Part shown: positions 5,813 to 40,281 of the stretch, piece after piece
How the letters are laid out: every line of letters begins with the position of its first letter
Numbering within the stretch: the first letter of the stretch is position 1
Origin: Prevotellaceae bacterium
GTDB lineage: Bacteria; Bacteroidota; Bacteroidia; Bacteroidales; Bacteroidaceae
Assembly (NCBI GenBank): GCA_030531085.1
Contig: JAUNOM010000020.1
Coordinates: 1 to 42,975, forward strand
Reading direction: 5' to 3'
Length of the DNA stretch: 42,975 nt
Notes under the pieces: model-generated
Seen by the model: only the letters and a program-made list of their open reading frames with translations
Database searches by the model: none
Told to the model about the DNA's origin: nothing
Program-made: the position numbers and the translations under genes

Positions 5813-6415
5813 ATGGCAGAAACGAAGAAAATCAAAACAGCCCTCGTCAGCGTCTTCCACAAGGACGGTCTTGACGAGCTTCTCACAAAGTTGAATGCGG
5901 AGGGAGTCAAATTCCTATCTACTGGTGGTACACAGAAATTCATAGAGTCTCTCGGTTTTGAGTGTGAGGCTGTGGAGAATGTAACTACATACCCTTCAAT
6001 ATTGGGTGGCCGTGTGAAGACACTGCATCCAAAAATCTTCGGAGGCATACTGGGACGCCGCGAATTGCAGGGCGATCTGGACCAGATGGCTAAGTACGAG
6101 ATTCCGGAGATAGACCTTGTGATTGTGGATCTCTATCCGTTTGAGCAGACAGTGGCCAGCGGTGCGAGCGCTGCGGACATCATAGAGAAGATCGATATAG
6201 GCGGAATATCACTGATACGTGCCGGTGCCAAGAACTTCAAGGACGTGGTTATCGTTCCGTCAAAGGCGGAGTATGGCGTGCTGCTTGACATCCTTAACAA
6301 GAGAGGCGCGGAGACAACTGAGGAGGAACGCCGTATGTTTGCGACACGCGCATTCGGTGTCAGCTCTCATTATGACACCGCTATCCACGCATGGTTCGAG
6401 GGTTCTGGTAAATAA
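5813..6415 (+). CDS. purH: Stand-alone IMP cyclohydrolase domain (short PurH)
   Basis: This 200-residue protein corresponds only to the N-terminal MGS-like/IMP cyclohydrolase domain of bifunctional PurH, which is normally about 500 residues. The recognisable segments are FLSTGGTQKFIESLG, TTYPSILGGRVKTLHPKIFG, IDLVIVDLYPF and DIGGISLIRAGAKNF. It ends cleanly with FEGSGK and a stop where full-length PurH continues into AICAR formyltransferase. No remnant of that domain fits in the 42 bp before mreB. Alone it could close FAICAR to IMP but could not formylate AICAR, so a separate formyltransferase (PurV type) is expected elsewhere. It shares a promoter with mreB. Confidence 0.9.
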   Translation: MAETKKIKTALVSVFHKDGLDELLTKLNAEGVKFLSTGGTQKFIESLGFECEAVENVTTYPSILGGRVKTLHPKIFGGILGRRELQGDLDQMAKYEIPEIDLVIVDLYPFEQTVASGASAADIIEKIDIGGISLIRAGAKNFKDVVIVPSKAEYGVLLDILNKRGAETTEEERRMFATRAFGVSSHYDTAIHAWFEGSGK

Positions 6416-12521: not shown

Positions 12522-13438
12522 TTATTCTACGCTCCACAATGGTTCATTCTGCCAGTCACCTAAGGGAAATCCCAATGCTCTAAGGTCAACTTCTGGAAAT
12601 TCAGAAAAGAGCGACTGCATTTTGCAGAGCATATCATTTGCAGGAGATATAATGTTAAGGAAATATTTGATGATGCAGAGGTCGAAATATGTGCGCATAG
12701 GGTCTGTTGGCAGGAGAATCCACTTACCTGCAGGATTACTTGGAATAGCTGGCTGCATGGCGTTCCGTTTATTCCAAATTCTTGCATGGTGACCGCAGGC
12801 ATTACGTGTTACAGCAATAATAGTCATCCATGATTCAAAGACATTTATAGGCAGTCCAAATTTCTTTGCTATGCGTTTGCGAATGCGGTTCTGTTTGATG
12901 TTTCGGTATATGGCATTAATATTGCCTATAGTAAGCAGTTCACCTAATATCCATGATGGAGGGTATGGATTGGAATAAGTATTCTTGAAGTGAATAACAA
13001 ATTCTTCTTTCGATTTATTGTATTCTCCAGAAATGGTATGCATTGTGTCATTAAACTTTGCATTGTCAAGGAAGTATTCTGGGCTTGTAAGCCAAAAAGG
13101 ATTACCAGTCATTTCTGTAGGTATCTGCATCACGGCACGGCGAACGGCAATCTCTATCTTCTCTATCTCATTAAACATTAACAGGCGAAGCTTTTTGTCG
13201 AACCTATAGAGCATCATGACTTTCTTAAACGTCGCTCCTTGCTTGAAAATAGTTCGGTTTTGGGATTACACAGAAGAGGATACATATAAGCGGACAAGCG
13301 ATAATAGCCGATATTTTCAAGATAATTCTCAGCTTTTCCCGCGTCATCTATGTGCAACCCACGTGAACGAAGTAAGTCAACAAGTCTCGCTGACGGGACA
13401 AATTGTTTAGTAAAAGGGATTAAATGCGCCATGAGCAT
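12522..13438 (-). pseudogene. Abi_2-family (AbiD/F-like) abortive infection gene, frameshifted
   Basis: The gene is split into an N-terminal frame (13438 to 13214; start 13438 or 13432) and a C-terminal frame (about 13250 to 12522). The first part ends in the family signature YLENIGYYRLSAYMYPLL. The second resumes with KQGATFKKVMMLYRFDKKLR and IEIAVRRAV. The frames join if one T is restored in the four-T run (AAAA on the plus strand, 13246-13249), giving about 305 residues, normal for Abi_2. The C-terminal part keeps a HEPN RNase motif, RNACGH (R-x4-H, Arg and His six residues apart). The homologues act in phage defence by toxic RNA cleavage. The AT-rich composition and flanking repeats suggest transfer. 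It is a recent pseudogene, a sequencing error, or less likely a recoded gene. Confidence 0.85.
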
Positions 13439-24156: not shown

Positions 24157-25611
24157 CTATTTCCGCATCTTTCCAATTAGAAATCTTTCGCATTCCTTTA
24201 GTATCTCTGCTCCTGACAGTTTCATTATGGTGTAGTAGAGCAGGGCTGCAATAGGAACTCGTGCTGATATCAGCAATAATGGCATGGATATGCTTCTGGT
24301 AATGTAGTGTGTAACCACCATTACTATGGCTGCGGCGATGGTGAACGGTATAATATCGCGTATCAGCTGATGCCAACTGTAGCCTATTAGGCGGCCAGCG
24401 AAGTGGTGCCATGGCACAATCCACAATACAATGAGAACGGAATATGCGGTCACCATGACATACATTCCATAGCGCCAGCATACGGCTATTATCAGGGCCT
24501 GCATGACTATCTGCCCTATGTTGAGCCACATGAATATGTCGCTGCGTCCCTGGCTGACGGACAGGTTCTGATACATTATATATATAGGCATGAAGGCACC
24601 GCTAATGCTTAGTATCTGTAGCATAGGTACGCAGCCAAGCCATTCCTCGCCTATTGTAAGGATGATGAACTCGTGTCCTACCAGTGCCAGACCGAACATC
24701 AACGGCATTGAGAGAAAGCAGGTGAAACGTAGCATCTTGCGGTAAACACGCAGGTTGCGGTCGGCGGAGTGTGTCTCGTTGTCCGCTTCCACCAGTACAG
24801 CCTGTGCTATCTGGCCTACAGTGTTTGAGACAAGGGAGTGTGCCATGGTGTCCCATTTGAATGCCTGTGAGTAGCTTCCCACATCATGCATGGAGAAGAG
24901 TCGTCCGAAGAACACTGTCAGTACATGATTACTGACTGTGTTTACTATCTTTGTGACGAGTATCTTCAGTGCGAATGGAGCCATTGTCACCACTGGAGCG
25001 AGGTTGAATGTAATCCGTGGGCGCCATTGACGTACGTAATAGTAGCGTCCTGCGTTGAGAACTCCTATGTATGCTATCTGTTGCCATGCCAAAGCCCAGT
25101 ATGAAGCGCCGTACAGTGCAAGCGCTATGCCCACAGTACCAGAGGCAATGAGTGCCACAGCACCGATGATAGCCATCTCGCGGTTCATCATGTTCTTAGT
25201 CATATAGCCGCCATGGGCTATGCCAAGTGATGCGATTACGAATGTAAGGAACAGAAGACGTGACACGTCCGTGAGGCAAGGCTGCTTGAAGAAGGCTGCT
25301 ATCAGTGGGGCGGAGAAGAACAGAATGGTATACATAACCGCTGACATCATCACGTTGAATGTGAATACCGCGTTGTAGTCATGACTGGCAGGCCGCTTCA
25401 TGTTTACCAGTCCTTGGGTGAATCCCGCACTTTGCAGGTCGCCAGCTATGGCGGTGAATATGGTCAGCACACCCACTATGCCGTACTCCTCTGGTGAGAG
25501 CAGGCGTGCCAGACATATACCTATGACAAGGTTCAGCACCTGTGTGGTGCCACTGTTCAGTGCTCCCCAAAGGAGTCCCTTCGCTGTTTTCTGCTTTAGT
25601 GTTTCAGACAT
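24157..25611 (-). CDS. Polysaccharide flippase (Wzx/RfbX-like)
   Basis: This 484-residue protein has about 12-14 hydrophobic segments and belongs to the MVF/polysaccharide transporter group. It starts with KQKTAKGLLWGALNSGTTQV, a common opening of Bacteroidetes lipopolysaccharide or O-antigen flippases. A conserved FSMHDVGSYSQAFK segment is in the middle. It would move lipid-linked sugars across the inner membrane. It is last in the minus-strand gene series and is separated from tyrS by a 14-bp hairpin, so it may have its own transcription. No glycosyltransferases are adjacent; the closest are 6-10 kb away. Confidence 0.88.
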   Translation of the reverse strand: MSETLKQKTAKGLLWGALNSGTTQVLNLVIGICLARLLSPEEYGIVGVLTIFTAIAGDLQSAGFTQGLVNMKRPASHDYNAVFTFNVMMSAVMYTILFFSAPLIAAFFKQPCLTDVSRLLFLTFVIASLGIAHGGYMTKNMMNREMAIIGAVALIASGTVGIALALYGASYWALAWQQIAYIGVLNAGRYYYVRQWRPRITFNLAPVVTMAPFALKILVTKIVNTVSNHVLTVFFGRLFSMHDVGSYSQAFKWDTMAHSLVSNTVGQIAQAVLVEADNETHSADRNLRVYRKMLRFTCFLSMPLMFGLALVGHEFIILTIGEEWLGCVPMLQILSISGAFMPIYIMYQNLSVSQGRSDIFMWLNIGQIVMQALIIAVCWRYGMYVMVTAYSVLIVLWIVPWHHFAGRLIGYSWHQLIRDIIPFTIAAAIVMVVTHYITRSISMPLLLISARVPIAALLYYTIMKLSGAEILKECERFLIGKMRK

Positions 25612-31394: not shown

Positions 31395-31438
31395 CATTGG
31401 CTATATTGCCATAATCTGGAGGAATATTGATTTTATCT

Positions 31439-32479
31439 ATGAGCAAAGTACTGTCTGTTATAATCCCGACTTATAATATGGAGAGGTATCTTCGGAGCTG
31501 TCTCTCCTCGCTGCTTGTTAGTAGTCACTCCGTCGGGCTTGAGGTTCTGGTGGTGAATGACGGCAGTCGCGACGGCAGTCTCGCCGTGGCGCGTGAGATG
31601 GCGGCGGCGCATCCCGATGTGTTCCGTGTCATAGACAAGCCCAATGGCAACTATGGCTCGTGCATTAACCGTGGCCTTGCGGAGGCTTCCGGCCGTTATG
31701 TCAGGGTGTTGGATGCTGATGACACGTATGACACGGCGGCTCTGGAGTCCCTTCTTGAGGTTCTGGAGACGGTGGATGTGGACCTTGTGGTTACGGATTA
31801 TGTGAAGGTGGATGACCGTGGCATGGTGACGGCGCGTCATGTTCGTAATCTTCCAACGGGACGTGACATGACTGATGATGAGATATTCGGCCTGGTGATG
31901 GGCGAGAAGCTGGAGATGCACGAGATAACGTACCGCACGGAGAATCTGCGCCGCATCGGTTACCGGCAGACGGAGGGCATATCGTTCACGGATCAGGAGT
32001 GGACCTTCCTGCCAATGACGACGGTGCGCACCGCGCGTTATGTGCCCGTGGTGCTGTACCGCTATCTGGTGGGCAGGGTAGGGCAGACGGTGGACCCTGC
32101 TGCCAGTCACAGGCTGCAGAGTCATGCGGAGCGTACCATGATGGCGCAGGTGGCTGCTTTCAATGCCTGCGGCCCCATGCGGCTGGCGCAGCGCGGTTAT
32201 CTTGTGGCGCATCTGCTGGCAAATCTCAACTTCACATACCGCTCATATCTTGTCTACTCGTACAGGTCTCTGCCGCTGGAGGGTCTGCGTAGCTTTGACA
32301 ATGCGCTGAGAGAGGCTGGCGGTGAGCTGTATTCCCTGCTGGACGATGAGACTGTTCATCCGCGTATTCCGTTGCATTTCATACGCCTCTGGCGCCAGTC
32401 CCGTAATGAGGTGCCCCTGCTTCTGCGCCTGTACCGCTCCATACTGTTCCCCATCCTCAGATGGTTTGGGAAGGGGTGA
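31439..32479 (+). CDS. Family 2 glycosyltransferase
   Basis: This 346-residue protein starts at ATG 31439; the longer frame would begin with TTG. A GGAGGA stretch lies 15 bp upstream, so ATG is preferred. The GT-A fold is clear: LSVIIPTYNMERYLRSCL at the N-terminus, VVNDGSRDGS for nucleotide binding, and the metal-binding DXD as LDADDTYD. The C-terminal half is less conserved. It transfers a sugar from a nucleotide donor; the acceptor is unknown. It stands alone, converging with the large minus-strand glycan operon, and may contribute to the same surface polysaccharide. Confidence 0.9.
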   Translation: MSKVLSVIIPTYNMERYLRSCLSSLLVSSHSVGLEVLVVNDGSRDGSLAVAREMAAAHPDVFRVIDKPNGNYGSCINRGLAEASGRYVRVLDADDTYDTAALESLLEVLETVDVDLVVTDYVKVDDRGMVTARHVRNLPTGRDMTDDEIFGLVMGEKLEMHEITYRTENLRRIGYRQTEGISFTDQEWTFLPMTTVRTARYVPVVLYRYLVGRVGQTVDPAASHRLQSHAERTMMAQVAAFNACGPMRLAQRGYLVAHLLANLNFTYRSYLVYSYRSLPLEGLRSFDNALREAGGELYSLLDDETVHPRIPLHFIRLWRQSRNEVPLLLRLYRSILFPILRWFGKG

Positions 32480-32487
32480 GCTGGTTT

Positions 32488-32709
32488 AGTTGTGAGTTGT
32501 GAATTATTAGTGATGAGTTATTAGTTGTGAATGATGAGTTATTAGTTATGAATTGGCACCTATTTACCCCTAATAAGACTATCTATTTCGCAGACAATAG
32601 GCAACAAATAGCGGACTACTTATCACTCATTCCTCATCATTCATAATTAGAAACTCATCATTCACAACTCACAACTAAGACCTCATCCCTCACAACTCAT
32701 AACTAAAAA
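32488..32709. repeat. Low-complexity inverted repeat, TTAGTTGTGAGTTG type
   Basis: The left part repeats variants of GTTGTGAATTATTAGTGATG and the right part repeats the complement (CATCATTCACAACTCAC), so a stem of several tens of bases could form. It separates the converging GT2 gene and the last gene of the glycan operon, and its right end runs into the last codons of that gene. It probably acts as a two-way terminator. Confidence 0.75.
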
Positions 32710-34095
32710 CTGCCCCAGCAGTTTGCTGTTCCACCACGCCATCCATATAGTGGCGGCGGAGATGGACAGCAGGGCGGCGCGGTAGGCTATGACATTGCGG
32801 CTGCGCAGTAATGGAGCTATGGCTATAGGTATGCAGAACAGGAAGTGGGGCGACATGATGTATATCTCATTGATGCCGAAACCGAGTATCAGGTGTATCA
32901 GCATATCGAAGGCGAGGAATGCCATGGCGGTCTGTACCACCGTGTTCCTGCGTCCGAACCATACACCTATGGCGGCGAGCAGCATGAGGAACGCCTCAAA
33001 GGCGTAGTTGTACCAGTGGCTGTAGGCCACAAAGGCCGGCCTGTCACGCAGCGCGTCACCAAGAAAATGGCTGTCATGAAACTGTAACGGCTCTCCGCAG
33101 AGGTTCTCAACGACTGTCTTCCACCGAGATGTCGATATGTCTGTCCATCCTATAAACTGCCCTTTGGCTATTGGACGGCCCGCATTTGCGTTCCAAGGCT
33201 TAAGGTGGTCGCGGCGGTATTTCGCCTTTGCACGCTGCCGTATAATGTTCTTTATCCCCTTTTCCACCGCCTCGGGAGTGACATTAGTGGCGGTGTCGAG
33301 GTACTGGCGGCGTATCTCCGCACGATATTCCCTGTCCTTCTGTATCATTTTCTGCCGCTGCGCCTCCGCTTTCGGCTTTACAAACAGCTCCTGCTGCGCC
33401 TGTGCCACCGTTAGCAGCAGCACCGTTGGCAGTGCCACCGCAAGCAGCAAGTAGCGTGGTTGGAAGAACTTCCTCTGGCGGTTGATGAGTGCCGCCATCA
33501 GCACCTTTATGCCATTGCTTAGCGTTACCCCTGCCGTTATGAGGTACAGTGCGGCCGTCTGCCCTGTGGTCATCGTCCTGCCGCTGATGTTCTGGCGGCA
33601 GGTAAAGTATATGACGGCGAGCAACAGCGTCATGGAAGGACCGAAATGGTCGGGCACAAAGGTGGCGAGCATCACGTAACCCATGGAGGCGAAGAGACAG
33701 CACAGCAGTAACGCGTCGCGCTGTCGCAGGCGCATCAGGCCGTGGAGTATGCGGAACAGGAGGATGAAGGCGCAGTATGCGCTGGCGGCCCACAGCATTC
33801 CCACTATGACACTGGCCCAGTTGCTGCCCGTGAGGGCGATGAGCCACTGGTTCATCTGACTTGGTATGTACATGGCAAAGGCCAGAAGTGGGTGGCGGTA
33901 GACATCATAGAGCACGTCCCATCGCGATACGGTGGAGTAGGTGTGCAGGTCATATCCCGACACGTGGTATGCCTTCCAGAACAGGTCGTGGTAGTCACTG
34001 GTGACGGTGCGGAACTGTTCAAAGTACTTCAGCACGTTGAGCACGTTGAGCGTTATGGCGTATATGGCGGCGAGAATGTGTACTGTCAGTTTCAT
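32683..34095 (-). CDS. Polytopic membrane protein, paralogue A of a three-member family
   Basis: This 470-residue protein has about nine to ten membrane segments. It shares ordered motifs with the proteins at 36254 and 37597: SGYDLHTY after the first membrane helix, then YRHPLLA, PDHF, TAGVTLSNGIKV, VENLCGEP and GINEIYIMSPHFLF with a following IPIA. The conserved Asp, His and Arg in outward loops resemble a GT-C type enzyme or a polysaccharide polymerase, but no named family is certain (a Bacteroidetes DUF6080-type assignment is possible). Last in the operon, 6 bp after a GT4 gene. A Lys/Arg-rich loop lies between residues about 235 and 310. Confidence 0.8.
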   Translation of the reverse strand: MKLTVHILAAIYAITLNVLNVLKYFEQFRTVTSDYHDLFWKAYHVSGYDLHTYSTVSRWDVLYDVYRHPLLAFAMYIPSQMNQWLIALTGSNWASVIVGMLWAASAYCAFILLFRILHGLMRLRQRDALLLCCLFASMGYVMLATFVPDHFGPSMTLLLAVIYFTCRQNISGRTMTTGQTAALYLITAGVTLSNGIKVLMAALINRQRKFFQPRYLLLAVALPTVLLLTVAQAQQELFVKPKAEAQRQKMIQKDREYRAEIRRQYLDTATNVTPEAVEKGIKNIIRQRAKAKYRRDHLKPWNANAGRPIAKGQFIGWTDISTSRWKTVVENLCGEPLQFHDSHFLGDALRDRPAFVAYSHWYNYAFEAFLMLLAAIGVWFGRRNTVVQTAMAFLAFDMLIHLILGFGINEIYIMSPHFLFCIPIAIAPLLRSRNVIAYRAALLSISAATIWMAWWNSKLLGQFLVMSCEG

Positions 34096-34101
34096 CTTGC
34101 A

Positions 34102-35193
34102 CTATTCTTTGTTGTAGAAGTCATGGTATTCCTGCTGCATACGTGACAGGGAGAAGTGTCTGCGTGCATACTCCCCGGCCGTGATGGCAAGCGCATTGCG
34201 GTCGGTATTGGGCAGTATGTCACGGAAGATGTGCAGCCATTGCTCCATGCTGTTGCCGCTTACGGTGAGCGGCCAGTCTGCAGGCAGCGTGTCGTAAAGC
34301 CCTGCGCAGTGGTTTATCATTGTGGGCAGGCCGTTCATGGAGGCCTCTATGGCAAGGATGCTGAGGCCCTCGTGGAGTGACGGCATTATGAGATAGTCAA
34401 ATGAACCCATCAGTTCCGCTATGCCGTGGCGTGGCGGTTGTATGGTGATGTTGTCCTGATGGCGCAGCTCCTCGACAGCGCTCTGCAGCCTGCCGGCACC
34501 GAACAGGTGGAAATGATAGCGCGTATCATCCCGCAGGGCCTTTATTATATCGCACAGGCAGGCTATTCCTTTCTGCTCCTCAAAGCGTCCTGCAAACAGG
34601 ATGTTTATCTTTCCCCGCACTATGCCGCTGTAATGTCGCTGCGTTGTGGGAGTCACTCCATTATATATAATAGGTGGGCACTCCGTGAAGCGGCGTGAGT
34701 ATGCCTGCTGTACATTTGGTGATATGGCGACATTGGCGTGCACTGACTGCATAAGGCGTTCCACACGTGGCCCTATCCGCTGCATTCCCGACCACAATAT
34801 GGTGTTGTGGATGGTGCGTACCACCCTGATATGGATGAATGGCAGGGCTTTCAGCGTCAGCCATACCGCCATGTCTGGCATCTCGGTGTGGCAGTGCACC
34901 ACGTCGGGACGGTACCTCATCCACAGGAACAGAAACCGTATGGGGAAGAGGATGGATATGAGCCGGTCCACATAGCAGTGCAGATGGAAGTACACGGGCA
35001 GCCACGAGCGGTGGCATGGTATGCCCTTTGCGCGCAGCTCTGCCGTCAGCTGCCGGGTGAAGGCGCTGTGTCCGCGCTGCAGCTCCACTATGTGGTGACG
35101 GTAGCCGGGGGCATCGGCCGATGCGATGTTTATCGCCACACGCTCCGCTCCGCCCACATCGAGGCGTGATATTATGTGGAATATGGTCTTCAT
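34102..35193 (-). CDS. Family 4 glycosyltransferase (1)
   Basis: This 363-residue GT-B protein has the N-terminal acceptor-side signature (ISRLDVGGAERVAINIA) with the glycine loop. The C-terminal donor domain has INILFAGRFEEQKG and the family motif LIMPSLHEGLSILAIEA (E-x7-E form) for nucleotide-sugar binding. It overlaps the preceding gene's stop by 4 bp (ATGA), so it is translationally coupled. It likely extends a cytoplasmic lipid-linked glycan in a retaining reaction. Confidence 0.9.
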   Translation of the reverse strand: MKTIFHIISRLDVGGAERVAINIASADAPGYRHHIVELQRGHSAFTRQLTAELRAKGIPCHRSWLPVYFHLHCYVDRLISILFPIRFLFLWMRYRPDVVHCHTEMPDMAVWLTLKALPFIHIRVVRTIHNTILWSGMQRIGPRVERLMQSVHANVAISPNVQQAYSRRFTECPPIIYNGVTPTTQRHYSGIVRGKINILFAGRFEEQKGIACLCDIIKALRDDTRYHFHLFGAGRLQSAVEELRHQDNITIQPPRHGIAELMGSFDYLIMPSLHEGLSILAIEASMNGLPTMINHCAGLYDTLPADWPLTVSGNSMEQWLHIFRDILPNTDRNALAITAGEYARRHFSLSRMQQEYHDFYNKE

Positions 35194-36242
35194 AGTGCCT
35201 TTATTACCGCCGCCATGTCTGCCGTGCAGCGTTCAATGTTATACAGCCGTTCGGCCAGCCTGCGGCCTTTACGTCCCATCTCCTGCGCCTTCTCGGGGTT
35301 GTTGGCGATGTATTCCACCGCCTTCTGCCATCCCTCTGTGTCCTCATGGTCCACCCATATTCCGCATCCCTCACGCTCTATGTCCATTGGCATCTGCTCA
35401 TTGCGTGTGCAGATGATGGGGATGCCGAGGGCGAGGGCCTCCACTACGGTGGTGAGTCCTACGGTGTAGTTGCTCCTCTGACAGCATATCACCACGCAGG
35501 AGGAGCGGTTCACCTTGCGGCTCATGTCGCGGAACGCCATGCCATGGATATAGTTCAGGCGGATGTTCGCGTTGAGTTGCAGGTGCGAGAAGATGTCATC
35601 ATAGTCGTTTCCGAGATAGGCCCGGCTGACATAGATGTCCAGTTGCGCCGTGGTACGGTTGAAGGCATTGACGAGTGTCGGCATATCGCGCAGCTCCTTG
35701 CCTGTGGATATGAATGTGCCTGGAGCGCGCAGCGTCCCCTCCTCGGCCATAAGGCGGTCGTAATAGTCAAGGTCCGCGCCCCAGTGTGCTATATGCAGGC
35801 GCTCGGGACGTGCCTTCTTAGCGGTTAATGAGTCATTGATGAGCTTCTCGGAGAACAGGAACATCTGGTCTATACCGCGGTAGAAGAGGCGTGCCATGAC
35901 TTCACGCAGGCGGCTGTCGGACTTCTTTACGGGCTGGTGATGCCACACAACGACGGGCTTGCGGTACAGTCCTATGGCGCGGAGGAATATTATCAGCTCC
36001 AGTCCGCGGAAGGCATTGCCGTACAGAACATCGTAGTGCTCACGGCAGGTCAGTACCTGCCACAGCGTGTTCAGGGACAGTTTCCACCTTTTGCAGGTGT
36101 CGTAGTAACGGTGTTTCACCATCCGTATGCCGTGCCTCTCAAAGTGAGTGCCGCCGTATAGCAGGTGGCCGGGGAAGAGACCCTTCTCCCATTCGCGCCA
36201 CATGAACTGTGTGTCCTGCTGGTTATAGAAATATATGGTCAT
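35190..36242 (-). CDS. Family 4-like glycosyltransferase (2)
   Basis: Starting at the ATG for MTIYFYNQQD, it has 350 residues; the in-frame ATG at 36302 would overlap the preceding gene and adds unrelated residues. It has a GT-B fold with a less typical N-terminal half (VVWHHQPVKKSDSR) and a donor-site region GTFISTGKELRDMPTLV. The conserved VGLTTVVEALALGIPIICT motif replaces the usual E-x7-E with partial conservation. Spacing is 11 bp after paralogue B, and it overlaps the next gene. Its sugar is unknown. Confidence 0.85.
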   Translation of the reverse strand: MTIYFYNQQDTQFMWREWEKGLFPGHLLYGGTHFERHGIRMVKHRYYDTCKRWKLSLNTLWQVLTCREHYDVLYGNAFRGLELIIFLRAIGLYRKPVVVWHHQPVKKSDSRLREVMARLFYRGIDQMFLFSEKLINDSLTAKKARPERLHIAHWGADLDYYDRLMAEEGTLRAPGTFISTGKELRDMPTLVNAFNRTTAQLDIYVSRAYLGNDYDDIFSHLQLNANIRLNYIHGMAFRDMSRKVNRSSCVVICCQRSNYTVGLTTVVEALALGIPIICTRNEQMPMDIEREGCGIWVDHEDTEGWQKAVEYIANNPEKAQEMGRKGRRLAERLYNIERCTADMAAVIKAL

Positions 36243-36253
36243 GGCATTGGGGG

Positions 36254-37591
36254 TTAGATGTGTATGATATGTTCCACTGTCAGCTTGAGATTGTGTGCCC
36301 ACAGGAATACTGTAAGGAACAGTATGGCGCAGAGCACGGCCATGTTGAGGCGCGGCCGCCGCTCAACGGCCTTGAGAAGGTATGCCACCGCTATCGGTAT
36401 TGCGAAGGCCCAGTGCGCCGTCATGATGTAAACGTCGGCGTTGGCGAAGTTGAGTCCCACGTGAAGAAGCATATCAAAGAGGAACATCGACATCGTCATC
36501 CATACTAAACGTGACCTGCGTCCGCACCAGACACCTGCCGCGAAGAGCGCCAACAGCACGCACTCGCAGCCGTAGAACCACCAGTGCCCGTAGCGGACTA
36601 ATGGCGGACGCTTCCTGTTAGCATCCTCAAGGGTGTGCCTCTCGTGCAGTATGAAGCCCTCGCCGAATATGTTTTCCACCACAGACGGCCACCTGTCCAC
36701 GTGGTGCTCGGTGTTGGTTACAAAGCTGAAGTGTATCAGCTGCTGCTGTCTGTTACGCTTCAGCTCCGCCTTGTCGTGCTTCCAGCGCCGTGCAAAGGTC
36801 TTGTCCTTGTCCGCCTTCTTGCGCATCAGCTCGTTGTTGCTGCGTGTCTCCTCCGCCTGTGTGGTGCGTGTCTGGTAGACGTATGCCCCAAAGATGAGCG
36901 CCAGTGGCAGCAGGTAGACGGCGAAATGCCTTATGATACGCGGCAGAGGGCGGCGCCCCCATTGCGTGAACAGGTCCGCCAGACCCACCTTTACCATATT
37001 GGTGGTGGTGACACCTGTCGCCAGAAACAGCAGCGGCAGTGACTGCCACAGCGGCATGGCGCGCCGTTCCATGACGGCTTTTCCTGCAAGATACACTGTC
37101 AGCAGCAGCAGCGGCAGCGTTATGGACATGTGGTCCGGAGTGAAGGTCACAAGCATTATGTGCGAGAAGGAGAAGAACCATGCCGTCAGCAGCAGGCTCT
37201 TTGTGGCGCAGAGCATGGTGATGCGGCGCAGTATGCGGTACATCAGGACCCATGACAGGGTTCCGAGTACGGTCCATACCGCGGCGATTATGAATATGGC
37301 GCAGTTGATATTCCATTCCGACTTCATCCAGCTGTTCAGCTCGGCAAGCGGCCACATCATTGCAGCAAGCAGCGGATGGCGCTCCAATACGTACAGCGGC
37401 CTCCACTTGGAGACGGTGATGTACGTGAAAGGGTCAAAGCCCGACAGCTCGAACCTGTTGTAGAATGCGCTCCAGAACCCCACCTTCGGGTTTGTCCACA
37501 CATCGTAATGGTATTGCAGCATGAGCAGGTTCAGGGCAGCCATGATGGCGAGGCCTGACGCAATGACCATAAAACTCTCCTTGTTTCTCAT
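36254..37591 (-). CDS. Polytopic membrane protein, paralogue B
   Basis: Counting from ATG 37591 (MRNKESFMVIAS) this is a 445-residue membrane protein. A longer open frame extends to 38212 but its first 200 residues are a Gly/Arg/Gln-rich shadow of the upstream gene. Motifs match paralogues A and C: SGFDPFTY, ERHPLLA, FTPDHM, TGVTTTNMVKV, VENIFGEG and VYIMTAHWAFAIPIA. It is the most divergent copy: it lacks GIN before the IM[ST]xH motif and has a shorter cytoplasmic loop. It begins 5 bp after paralogue C, the tightest spacing in this operon except for overlapping genes. Confidence 0.8.
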   Translation of the reverse strand: MRNKESFMVIASGLAIMAALNLLMLQYHYDVWTNPKVGFWSAFYNRFELSGFDPFTYITVSKWRPLYVLERHPLLAAMMWPLAELNSWMKSEWNINCAIFIIAAVWTVLGTLSWVLMYRILRRITMLCATKSLLLTAWFFSFSHIMLVTFTPDHMSITLPLLLLTVYLAGKAVMERRAMPLWQSLPLLFLATGVTTTNMVKVGLADLFTQWGRRPLPRIIRHFAVYLLPLALIFGAYVYQTRTTQAEETRSNNELMRKKADKDKTFARRWKHDKAELKRNRQQQLIHFSFVTNTEHHVDRWPSVVENIFGEGFILHERHTLEDANRKRPPLVRYGHWWFYGCECVLLALFAAGVWCGRRSRLVWMTMSMFLFDMLLHVGLNFANADVYIMTAHWAFAIPIAVAYLLKAVERRPRLNMAVLCAILFLTVFLWAHNLKLTVEHIIHI

Positions 37592-37596
37592 TGTCT

Positions 37597-39033
37597 TCAG
37601 TTGATGTTGCGCACTATCACCGTCATGTTCCATGCCATGCACCACAGGGCTATGGCCGCTGTCAGTGCCGTCAAGGCCATGCTCTCCCTCCTCTTCAGCA
37701 GGTAACCCATGGCTATTGGCACCACGAACAGGTAGTGGGCGGACATTATGTATATCTCGTTTATGCCGAAGCCTAAGCCCATGTGCAGCGTCATGTCCAT
37801 GAGAAGCAGGGACATCGCCGTCCATAGGAACAGCCTTTTCCTGCCACACCATATACCGATAAGGAACAGGACGACCACGGCTGCCTCCACACTGTAGTTG
37901 GCATAGCGCCATATTCCCGTGTAGCGCACCACCACAGGGCGGCTCCTCATCACGTCTCCCAGTGCGTTCTCGCTGTGCAGCTGCACAGCCTCTCCGAACA
38001 GATTCTCCACTGCCGCGTCTGTCCTCGAGGTGCTCTGGTCCGTCCACCGCATGAACTCTCCGTCCATGAAGGGCTTGCCCATCTTGCTGTTGGCTTTCTT
38101 CTTGTTTGCGGCCAGCCTCTTCTCCTCGTCCCTCCTGTGCTTTATCGCATCCACCGCAGCCTTTATCGAGGCGCTGTCCTTGACCTGAATGGTGTCTGAG
38201 ACACTGCTCCACAGCCTGACGGCAGACACACTGTCGCGGCGTGCCTTGGCCTCATGGCGTGCCATTTCCTTAGGCCACTGCCACGTCTTGTACTCCCATT
38301 TCGCCACACCCCATATCAATGCCGACGGCAACACTACTCCAAGCAGCAGGAACTGCCATCTGAAGAACCTCTGACGGCGCGTCACCATGGCGGCAAGGAA
38401 CACCTTCAGACCGTTGTTTAGCGATATGCCTGCCGTCAGCATGAATAGCGCCACCGTCTGCCAAAGGTTCAGAGCGGAGCCGCGGCGCAGCTTCTCTCCA
38501 CCCAGCCACAGGGTCAGCAGCAGGCAGAACTGGGACATAACGAAGTGGTCCGGGGCAAGGGACGAGAGTATGATGTACCCGAATGAGAAGTACATCGCGG
38601 TCAGTGACAGCGCCGATCTGTAGCTTATGCCGATGACATTGCGCAGTATCCGGTACAGGAAGACGTATGAGTATGTGGAGCATACAATAAGCACCATGGC
38701 CGTGAGAACGGCCGCGAAGTTCATGCCTGTGAGCCATATCAGCCCCTGATTTGCCAGATATAGCGGATACATGAAGAACGCCAGCAGGGGGTGTCTGTAT
38801 ATGTTATAGGCAGGAAACCACTGTGATATGACCTCGTATGTCAGAGGGTCAAAGCCCGATACGGCGTATGTGTTGACGAAAAGCCTGTGATAGTTGTCCG
38901 AGAGGGCGGAAAACTTGTCCCAGTAGGCATATACGTTGATGGCGTTGATGATGATGAAATACATCACCGCCAGTGCCACAGGCCGCCGCTCCCCGGTGCG
39001 CAGCTCGAAGATGTTTATTATTCTTTGCAGCAT
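37597..39033 (-). CDS. Polytopic membrane protein, paralogue C
   Basis: This 478-residue membrane protein is the upstream member of the family trio. It has SGFDPLTY, YRHPLLA, LAPDHF, TAGISLNNGLKV, VENLFGEA and GINEIYIMSAHYLF with a following VPIA. A charged loop (about 260-330) rich in Lys, Arg and Ala separates two membrane halves. Candidate active-site residues are the Asp of SG[FY]D, the Arg-His of RHPLLA, the Asp-His of PDH and the His of IM[ST]xH. It starts 12 bp after a GT4 gene. A GT-C transferase or polymerase role is inference. Confidence 0.8.
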   Translation of the reverse strand: MLQRIINIFELRTGERRPVALAVMYFIIINAINVYAYWDKFSALSDNYHRLFVNTYAVSGFDPLTYEVISQWFPAYNIYRHPLLAFFMYPLYLANQGLIWLTGMNFAAVLTAMVLIVCSTYSYVFLYRILRNVIGISYRSALSLTAMYFSFGYIILSSLAPDHFVMSQFCLLLTLWLGGEKLRRGSALNLWQTVALFMLTAGISLNNGLKVFLAAMVTRRQRFFRWQFLLLGVVLPSALIWGVAKWEYKTWQWPKEMARHEAKARRDSVSAVRLWSSVSDTIQVKDSASIKAAVDAIKHRRDEEKRLAANKKKANSKMGKPFMDGEFMRWTDQSTSRTDAAVENLFGEAVQLHSENALGDVMRSRPVVVRYTGIWRYANYSVEAAVVVLFLIGIWCGRKRLFLWTAMSLLLMDMTLHMGLGFGINEIYIMSAHYLFVVPIAMGYLLKRRESMALTALTAAIALWCMAWNMTVIVRNIN

Positions 39034-39045
39034 ACCTTACACCTA

Positions 39046-40281
39046 TTATATATGTCCGTCATTACCGTCACCATCCCTGTAGACGGCCATATACCTCTCC
39101 GCCACGCTTCTCTCGCTGTACTGTTCCGTCACCTTCTCGCGTGCCGCCGTCGCCAGCCGTGCCGCGTTTGCGGTGTCTGTGACATAGCGTATGCCCTGTG
39201 CCAGGTCGTGCGCGTCCCTGTATCGCGCCACATATCCGTTCACCTTGTGGTCTATCATCTCCGGTATTCCGCCCACGTTGAAGCCAACGCACGGCGTACC
39301 TACCGCCATTGCCTCCATGATGGTGTTGGGCAGGTTGTCCTGCAGCGACGGTGTGACGAAGGCGTCAGCCGCCGCGTACAGTGCCGCCATGGTGTCCGCG
39401 CTGCTCACCTGGCCTGCACACACCGTGTGGACTCCCTGTGGCATCAGCGCTCTTGTGGCCTCCGCGTTCCCTCCAACGAGCACTACAGTGATGCTGTCCA
39501 GTTCCCCCAGCGCGCTGATAAGGTAGTCCAGCCCCTTGCGCTTGTCCGTAACCTTCTGGCATCCGAACAGTATCAGCGTGCCCTGTGCAGGCAGTCCCGT
39601 CATTGTTCTTGCCTCATTGCGCGGTATGTGGTGGAACACAGTGGTGTCAATGGGGTTTGGTATGGCCACCACCTTCTGTCCCCTGGCCAGCATACTGGCA
39701 CGGGCCATGCGTCCAAGCCATTCGCTGCACGTCACGAATGTGATGCGTCCGCCGCTGTATATCCTCTGTTTCTTAAGAAAAACGCTGCGTGACAGGTCGT
39801 CCGCCCCGCAGTCCTTCAGCAGCGGACAGTGTCCGCAACCCTTCTCGTACCGTGTGCACTCCTCGCTGTAATGGCATATTCCCGTCATGGGCCACTGGTC
39901 GTGCATGGTCCATACGATGCGCTTTCCGCTGTTGACGATGCGCTGCAGCGTCCTGATGGATATGAACCCCTGGTTCACCCAATGCAGGTGTATCACGTCA
40001 GCATCCTTAAATGCCTTTGTGCTTGTCACGTCATCGCCGCAGCAGGCAATGTCCACGGCAAACAGATTTCTGCCGCTCATGCCATTGGCAAGCCATATCT
40101 TCAGCCGTTCAAGCAGAAAGGGAACTCCGCCCCACTTCTCCTTCCACAGCGGAAGCCTTAGGTTCCTGCGGCACAGCATCGTCGCCTCCGCACCGTTGGC
40201 ATTGAGGGCGCGCATCAGTCTGTTGGCCGCAATGGCGGCCCCTCCCGTAGAGGCAAAGGTGCTAAGAATAAGTATCTTCAT
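39046..40281 (-). CDS. Family 4 glycosyltransferase (3)
   Basis: This 411-residue GT-B protein opens with MKILILSTFASTGGAAIAAN, a form frequent in Bacteroidetes capsule loci. It has an inner Cys-rich stretch (HYSEECTRYEKGCGHC, about 155-175) that may bind a metal or form disulfides. The donor-binding region includes FVTPSLQDNLPNTIMEAMAV. It begins 18 bp after the VanZ-like gene and ends 12 bp before paralogue C. It is the first glycosyltransferase of the operon, so it may start glycan elongation. Confidence 0.9.
   Translation of the reverse strand: MKILILSTFASTGGAAIAANRLMRALNANGAEATMLCRRNLRLPLWKEKWGGVPFLLERLKIWLANGMSGRNLFAVDIACCGDDVTSTKAFKDADVIHLHWVNQGFISIRTLQRIVNSGKRIVWTMHDQWPMTGICHYSEECTRYEKGCGHCPLLKDCGADDLSRSVFLKKQRIYSGGRITFVTCSEWLGRMARASMLARGQKVVAIPNPIDTTVFHHIPRNEARTMTGLPAQGTLILFGCQKVTDKRKGLDYLISALGELDSITVVLVGGNAEATRALMPQGVHTVCAGQVSSADTMAALYAAADAFVTPSLQDNLPNTIMEAMAVGTPCVGFNVGGIPEMIDHKVNGYVARYRDAHDLAQGIRYVTDTANAARLATAAREKVTEQYSERSVAERYMAVYRDGDGNDGHI

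Follow-up and report, generated by a model that had tools for sequence, protein, structure and literature searches.

DUF6080 proteins of a Prevotellaceae bacterium as predicted GT-C glycosyltransferases with a putative pentofuranose donor

We analyzed a 42,975-nucleotide stretch of a Prevotellaceae bacterium (GenBank assembly GCA_030531085.1, contig JAUNOM010000020.1, positions 1 to 42,975), here called the window, which carries three genes for polytopic membrane proteins of the family DUF6080 (Pfam PF19558) on its minus strand. Based on computed family membership, conserved residues, genomic co-occurrence, gene neighborhoods and a phosphatase-DUF6080 fusion, we propose that these proteins, designated A (32683..34095), B (36254..37591) and C (37597..39033), are GT-C glycosyltransferases moving pentofuranose from polyprenyl phosphate to a glycan at the periplasmic side of the inner membrane (probability about 0.72). 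The first-pass annotation of this DNA had considered the family possibly undescribed. This applies to its function, for which nothing was found in the open-licence literature under DUF6080 or PF19558, but not to the family itself, which is already in Pfam without a function; new here are the likely donor and the proposed function. If true, the proposal would provide a function for a family present in 123 of 200 sampled same-genus genomes and extend the three-component pentofuranose pathway to Bacteroidota, where another GT-C protein would take part. It would also give glycan chemists a sugar to look for and name UbiA, HAD and GtrA as the donor genes.

Family membership, conserved residues and predicted fold

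All three proteins matched PF19558 over nearly its full length (positions 16-446, 10-446 and 2-443 of 447) with 428-540 bits at a curated cut-off of 27, corresponding to E values of 8.1e-146 for A, 3.5e-128 for B (scored on a longer open reading frame, ORF) and 3.9e-162 for C. Thereby, the earlier suggestion of three paralogues of one membrane family, possibly DUF6080, was confirmed; A and B are 37% and 32% identical to C, respectively. Because all three match PF19558 far above the cut-off, the shared motifs reflect family homology, and a likeness by chance is ruled out. Among the six motifs named in the first-pass annotation, five were borne out: SG[FY]DxxTY (SGFDPLTY, SGYDLHTY and SGFDPFTY), RHPLLA and PDH (each in all three proteins), the VEN motif (VENLFGE, VENLCGE and VENIFGE) and the IM motif (IMSAH, IMSPH and IMTAH). 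The sixth, T[AT]G, shows a small deviation, as the middle gene has ATG at this place.

The survey of conserved residues covered 103 distinct DUF6080 stretches, 96 from near and 7 from distant relatives, a set biased to strong matches. In the numbering of protein C, G60, D62, R80, H81, P82, N105, D162, H163, G202, N344, G347, E348 and H353, among others, are invariant in all 96 near relatives, while H417 and H433 are histidines in 94 and 83 of them, respectively. The RHP motif aligns in six of the seven distant members; G202, N207 and H417 are kept in all seven, and D162 is replaced by glutamate in all seven. Candidate catalytic residues are D62, located in what is predicted to be the first periplasmic loop, and D162, along with H81, H417 and H433. 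No carbohydrate-binding domain was matched by Pfam in the window proteins.

For C and B, AlphaFold2 models were made from alignments of 9 sequences each (pLDDT 76.8 and pTM 0.79 for C; pLDDT 75.9 and pTM 0.81 for B) and compared with the PDB using Foldseek, where the best 50 of 129 and the best 50 of 191 rows were evaluated for the two models. Within these best 50 rows, every row with a probability of at least 0.5 is a GT-C protein by title (25/25 for C and 22/22 for B), including oligosaccharyltransferase (OST)/STT3, PglB, ALG12 and Pmt entries. For this count, we took the translocon chains 8b6l_I and 9n9j_I to be STT3, and PIG-U to have a GT-C fold. The best E values were 0.0032 (C) and 0.0019 (B), both for OST entries, and TM-scores reached 0.47 and 0.50 for PglB and 0.44 and 0.45 for ALG12. 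Model B also matched the furanosyltransferases EmbC (probability 0.98), EmbB with donor (0.92), AftD (0.85) and AftB (0.84). The best listed row outside GT-C was a designed filament (0.30, model C), and transporter and receptor rows stayed below 0.1. According to helix and charge patterns, transmembrane helix 1 is followed by a loop with SGFD...RHPLLA, and PDH, VENxxGE and YIMSxH lie in later loops; all these loops probably face the periplasm. Both models thus support the GT-C family named in the first-pass annotation, and DUF6080 proteins very probably adopt this predicted fold.

Genomic partners and distribution

DUF6080 was present in 123/200 same-genus genomes, 20/301 genomes of the family draw, 8/296 of the phylum draw and none of 14 control genomes. 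The family consists of two old lineages, often in tandem, in a tree of 41 proteins; copy A groups with the lineage of C on a long branch (1.24) of weak placement and belongs to no strongly supported set. The three different linkages considered in the first-pass annotation are tentative in view of these two lineages. The named relatives found for the window genome were one Prevotella and two Prevotellaceae metagenome-assembled genomes (MAGs; loci L005, L006 and L007). All three share the one-strand order GT4 - C - B - GT4 - GT2 - Wzx, with an extra GT4 gene in L005 only, and copy A is missing from all of them.

The conserved partner is a UbiA-type protein that NCBIfam model NF008978 assigns to the decaprenyl-phosphate phosphoribosyltransferases (236.5 bits, cut-off 207). 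Twenty chosen DUF6080 neighborhoods of up to 19 kb were inspected, and the 14 from the same genus were clustered with the window and the three MAG loci, with Pfam searches run on cluster representatives. These 14 contain UbiA (9), a HAD phosphatase (9), GtrA (6), a sulfatase-fold enzyme (10), one Acyl_transf_3 group (10) and Wzx (8). The motifs NDxxDxxxD of UbiA and DFDGTL of HAD were present in all sequences inspected (5/5 and 4/4). Beside UbiA at L082:14223-18166 and L103:6484-10283, we observed genes for a sulfatase-fold membrane enzyme, whose N-terminus in L103 is weakly EptA-like, and for Acyl_transf_3 proteins; the glycan may therefore be further decorated.

Across the 200 same-genus genomes, 111 have both UbiA and DUF6080, 12 only DUF6080, 16 only UbiA and 61 neither, where UbiA was counted at E 0.001 (114 of the 127 positives exceed the NF008978 cut-off) and both draws comprise the same genomes as far as shown. 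Only one of the 12 genomes with DUF6080 alone (G609) is listed as at least 90% complete. For the 85 near-complete genomes, tallies of 64 and 67 fit 63 with both genes. UbiA and DUF6080 could be placed in 101 of the 111 genomes: they share a contig in 69 and lie within 1 kb in 34, within 2 kb in 58 and within 5 kb in 61.

The link is also found in other taxa. In a genome from another genus of the same family (G305), UbiA (L100:6655-7539) is followed after about 14 bases by a single frame encoding a HAD-DUF6080 fusion. As listed, the fusion ORF has 921 amino acids, the initial part of which overlaps UbiA in another frame. This UbiA is 37-39% identical to those of G000, G012 and G697, and the fused HAD domain is 40% identical to the HAD protein of G697. 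A genome from outside the class (G219) has a weak DUF6080 match (31.1 bits, cut-off 27) in tail-to-tail orientation with a UbiA gene that reaches 137 bits, below the NF008978 cut-off of 207. In the phylum draw, all eight DUF6080 genomes carry UbiA (seven above the cut-off), compared with 36 of 296 overall; six of the eight belong to one family, here called f4.

In f4, UbiA, an FAD_binding_4 oxidase, a short-chain dehydrogenase and HAD lie in a row (L121:7123-10702, similarly in L122 and L123; Pfam was run on L121 only), likely a polyprenyl-phospho-arabinofuranose pathway. By analogy, the resemblance of this set to DprE1/DprE2 makes arabinofuranose the likely sugar in f4. The FAD_binding_4 protein of L121, called DprE1-like from its gene position, had no counterpart in the 200 same-genus genomes at E 1e-10. 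As a control, the same query was positive in G099, G292 and all six DUF6080-bearing f4 genomes, and negative in G000, G305 and G219. Since the DprE1-like gene is missing from the 200 genomes, ribofuranose is expected there, and we consider it the somewhat more probable sugar in Prevotella.

All 16 UbiA neighborhoods of the 16 same-genus genomes with UbiA and without DUF6080 were also examined. In seven, one multi-transmembrane family directly adjoins UbiA, mostly together with HAD (L124:7541-9025, L126:8264-9835, L127:5327-7033, L129:4931-6424, L133:6894-8600, L136:6932-8548 and L139:6602-8131; G614 and G689 look near-identical). Judged by its sequence, this family looks GT-C-like, with a first-loop motif WIDEV...YPPLY in the six sequences inspected. 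The UbiA-adjacent multi-transmembrane proteins of L124, L125, L126, L127, L128 and L137 had no Pfam match above the cut-off, and profile comparison gave neither a link of the family to DUF6080 (probability 0.2%) nor a PDB match. The remaining nine neighborhoods contain another protein with seven transmembrane helices (G705), further multi-transmembrane proteins (G626 and G744), nothing convincing (G661 and G771) or no such neighbor (G647, G674, G723 and G740). The last four genomes are 65-78% complete and their UbiA proteins are 60-66% identical to DUF6080-linked UbiA, so DUF6080 may merely be missing from the assemblies. The UbiA surroundings in a further 13 Bacteroidota that lack DUF6080 (L108-L120) are mixed, several having no clear GT-C neighbor; among four UbiA neighbors scanned there, L113 alone touched PMT_2, below the cut-off (E 0.018).

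Proposed pathway and alternative readings

From the genomic association we infer that a pentofuranose lipid is quite likely the donor of DUF6080. The activity, the individual chemical steps, the acceptor and why there are three copies are likewise inferred. First, the UbiA-type phosphoribosyltransferase would load polyprenyl phosphate with ribose-5-phosphate from phosphoribosyl pyrophosphate (PRPP), and the 5-phosphate would then be removed by the HAD phosphatase. The lipid-sugar would be flipped outward by GtrA or another flippase, and DUF6080 would pass the furanose to an acceptor made by the adjacent GT4/GT2 enzymes and flipped by Wzx. The polymerase suggested in the first-pass annotation is not supported, since the gene regularly found with DUF6080 encodes a polyprenyl-phospho-pentose synthase, a sign that single sugars are moved from a lipid-monophosphate donor. 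An O-antigen ligase was rejected as well; the lone row for either reading near the top was WaaL with a probability of 0.25 (model B, best 50 rows).

A comparable system is known. 'Three-component' pentofuranose systems were described in 2024 for Citrobacter youngae O1 and O2 (PMC11127046), in which a UbiA synthase with a HAD domain and a GT-C enzyme (GT136) add pentofuranoses in the periplasm, as shown by assays and mutants, together with a proposed flippase. The GT136 and DUF6080 systems, compared by description, have in common a UbiA-type polyprenyl phosphoribose synthase, a HAD phosphatase and, as predicted for the DUF6080 systems, a flippase and a GT-C transferase; in either, the phosphatase may be joined to a further component. 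The C. youngae systems have a synthase-phosphatase fusion, a MATE-type flippase and a carbohydrate-binding domain in GT136, whereas the phosphatase of DUF6080 systems stands alone or forms one protein with DUF6080, often with GtrA in the block. No Bacteroidota, Prevotella or DUF are named in the main text of that paper. The mycobacterial enzymes EmbA-C, AftA, AftB and AftD, which appear in Foldseek rows for both models, likewise combine GT-C with a decaprenyl-phospho-furanose donor from a UbiA synthase. They differ in having no sequence match to DUF6080 and in the DprE1-like gene missing from the same-genus genomes.

Several observations weigh against the proposed function. For neither model did Foldseek give an E value of 0.001 or below or a TM-score above 0.50, and no sequence link from DUF6080 to any solved GT-C protein was found; the best PDB profile match (E 0.71) was a designed protein. 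D62 is aligned in just two of the seven distant members. The odds ratio of 35 for co-occurrence of UbiA and DUF6080 is uncorrected for relatedness and inflated by species kinship, and in f4 the two genes lie apart. In the window genome itself, UbiA, HAD and GtrA are present but scattered over contigs other than that of the window: UbiA (249.7 bits with NF008978) on contig C21 beside sulfatase and Acyl_transf_3 genes, HAD as a 47% match on contig C57 with a stop reported inside the matched stretch, and GtrA on contig C22 as a family-level match only. Also, the O-glycan of P. intermedia is without pentose in the available part of PMC10897501.

The lack of adjacency in the window genome is also what would be expected if DUF6080 were a GT-C enzyme using another polyprenyl-phospho-sugar, such as a hexose, and shared only its placement in glycan islands with UbiA. 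The top Foldseek rows, mostly hexosyl- and oligosaccharyltransferases, agree with this. Such an explanation is unlikely, as the 58 of 101 genomes with both genes within 2 kb, the HAD fusion and the UbiA neighbor in a genome of another class exceed what shared placement would predict. In addition, inspection by eye and Pfam searches of cluster representatives revealed no lipid-phosphate-hexose synthase gene in the three conserved runs of the MAGs.

Still less probable is that DUF6080 proteins are oligosaccharyltransferases or ligases moving an undecaprenyl-pyrophosphate-linked glycan onto protein or a Bacteroidota O-glycan core. STT3/PglB, ALG12/ALG9 and Pmt (class GT-CA), with the highest Foldseek ranks and TM-scores up to 0.50 at 8-14% sequence identity, use lipid-pyrophosphate-oligosaccharide or dolichol-phosphate-mannose donors. 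STT3 and PglB are among the top rows, and the flippase of the same run is nearest to an O-glycosylation Wzx model; moreover, the O-oligosaccharyltransferase and ligase are described as still unknown in the available part of a 2025 review (PMC12871550). However, that part of the review describes enrichment of the O-glycosylation motif across almost every Bacteroidota family, whereas DUF6080 is rare in the phylum and family draws, and the link to UbiA and HAD would be left unexplained. Transporters or non-enzymatic membrane partners are very improbable: the proteins are polytopic and an enzymatic role is only predicted, but transporter and receptor rows had Foldseek probabilities below 0.1 in both listings and the invariant charged residues lie in loops assigned to the periplasm.

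Returning to pentofuranose transfer, its acceptor could tentatively be the outer O-glycan of glycoproteins. A Wzx homologue ends the DUF6080 gene run in all three MAG loci. The Wzx-type flippase of the window (24157..25611, minus strand) is the sole match to NCBI O-glycosylation flippase model NF058658 in the genome, with 565.9 bits below the cut-off of 720. It adjoins a tyrosyl-tRNA synthetase gene about 7 kb away from the DUF6080 genes; the order given for Bacteroidota O-glycosylation (LFG) loci in the available part of PMC12871550 is metG, wzx and glycosyltransferases. No Prevotella structure with ribofuranose was named in the literature search. At L082:1856-4474 and comparable loci, an epimerase gene lies near DUF6080 together with IspD-like and LicD-like genes, which suggest a phosphate decoration of the CDP-alditol type; LicD and IspD would be consistent with the phospho-alditol that P. 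intermedia carries on its pentose-free O-glycan.

The widest form of the proposal is evenly balanced in our view. DUF6080 would found a new GT-C family, the polyprenyl-phospho-pentofuranose transferases of Bacteroidota, by which a Prevotella surface glycan, possibly a glycoprotein O-glycan, gains periplasmic ribofuranose. Where two or three copies occur, each would attach its own pentose, the phosphatase could be fused to the transferase, and the unrelated GT-C-like protein beside UbiA would substitute in some Prevotella.

Organization of the locus

The host genome comprises 2.37 Mb on 61 contigs and is 81% complete. From 40281 to 32683 on the minus strand, six genes follow each other: GT4, DUF6080 C, DUF6080 B, GT4, GT4 and DUF6080 A. 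The first GT4-type glycosyltransferase (39046..40281; Glyco_trans_1_4, E 2.7e-26) lies 12 bases upstream of C and has the same position in the three MAG loci. C (478 amino acids) and B (445 amino acids) are separated by 5 bases. The ORF listed at 36254-38212 (652 amino acids) is too long, as codons 1 to 207 lie over the upstream DUF6080 gene in a different frame; judged by the sequence, B likely starts at the ATG at 37591. Downstream follow two further GT4-type genes at 35190..36242 (Glycos_transf_1, E 1.3e-9; homologues in L005 and L087) and 34102..35193 (Glyco_transf_4, E 1.1e-15; homologues in L005, L006, L007 and L086). For the former, listed as 35190-36302, the ATG at 36242 is the probable start; the latter lies 6 bases upstream of A (470 amino acids), the additional copy that groups with C. 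With gaps of 12, 11 and 6 bases, each DUF6080 gene is indeed located within a few bases of a glycosyltransferase gene, as first noticed.

Upstream of the run are a VanZ-like gene (below the cut-off) and a gene for an AMP-binding enzyme. On the opposite strand, a GT2 glycosyltransferase (31427..32479, plus strand; Glycos_transf_2, E 7.2e-28) is a putative member of the same pathway. Elsewhere in the window, an Abi_2 (Abi-like) gene (12522-13217) lies between genes for cell shape and one encoding BspA-type leucine-rich repeats. Also, a 200-amino-acid ORF (5813-6415) immediately before mreB encodes an MGS domain and just the first 57 positions of an AICARFT domain, an apparently shortened purH-like gene.

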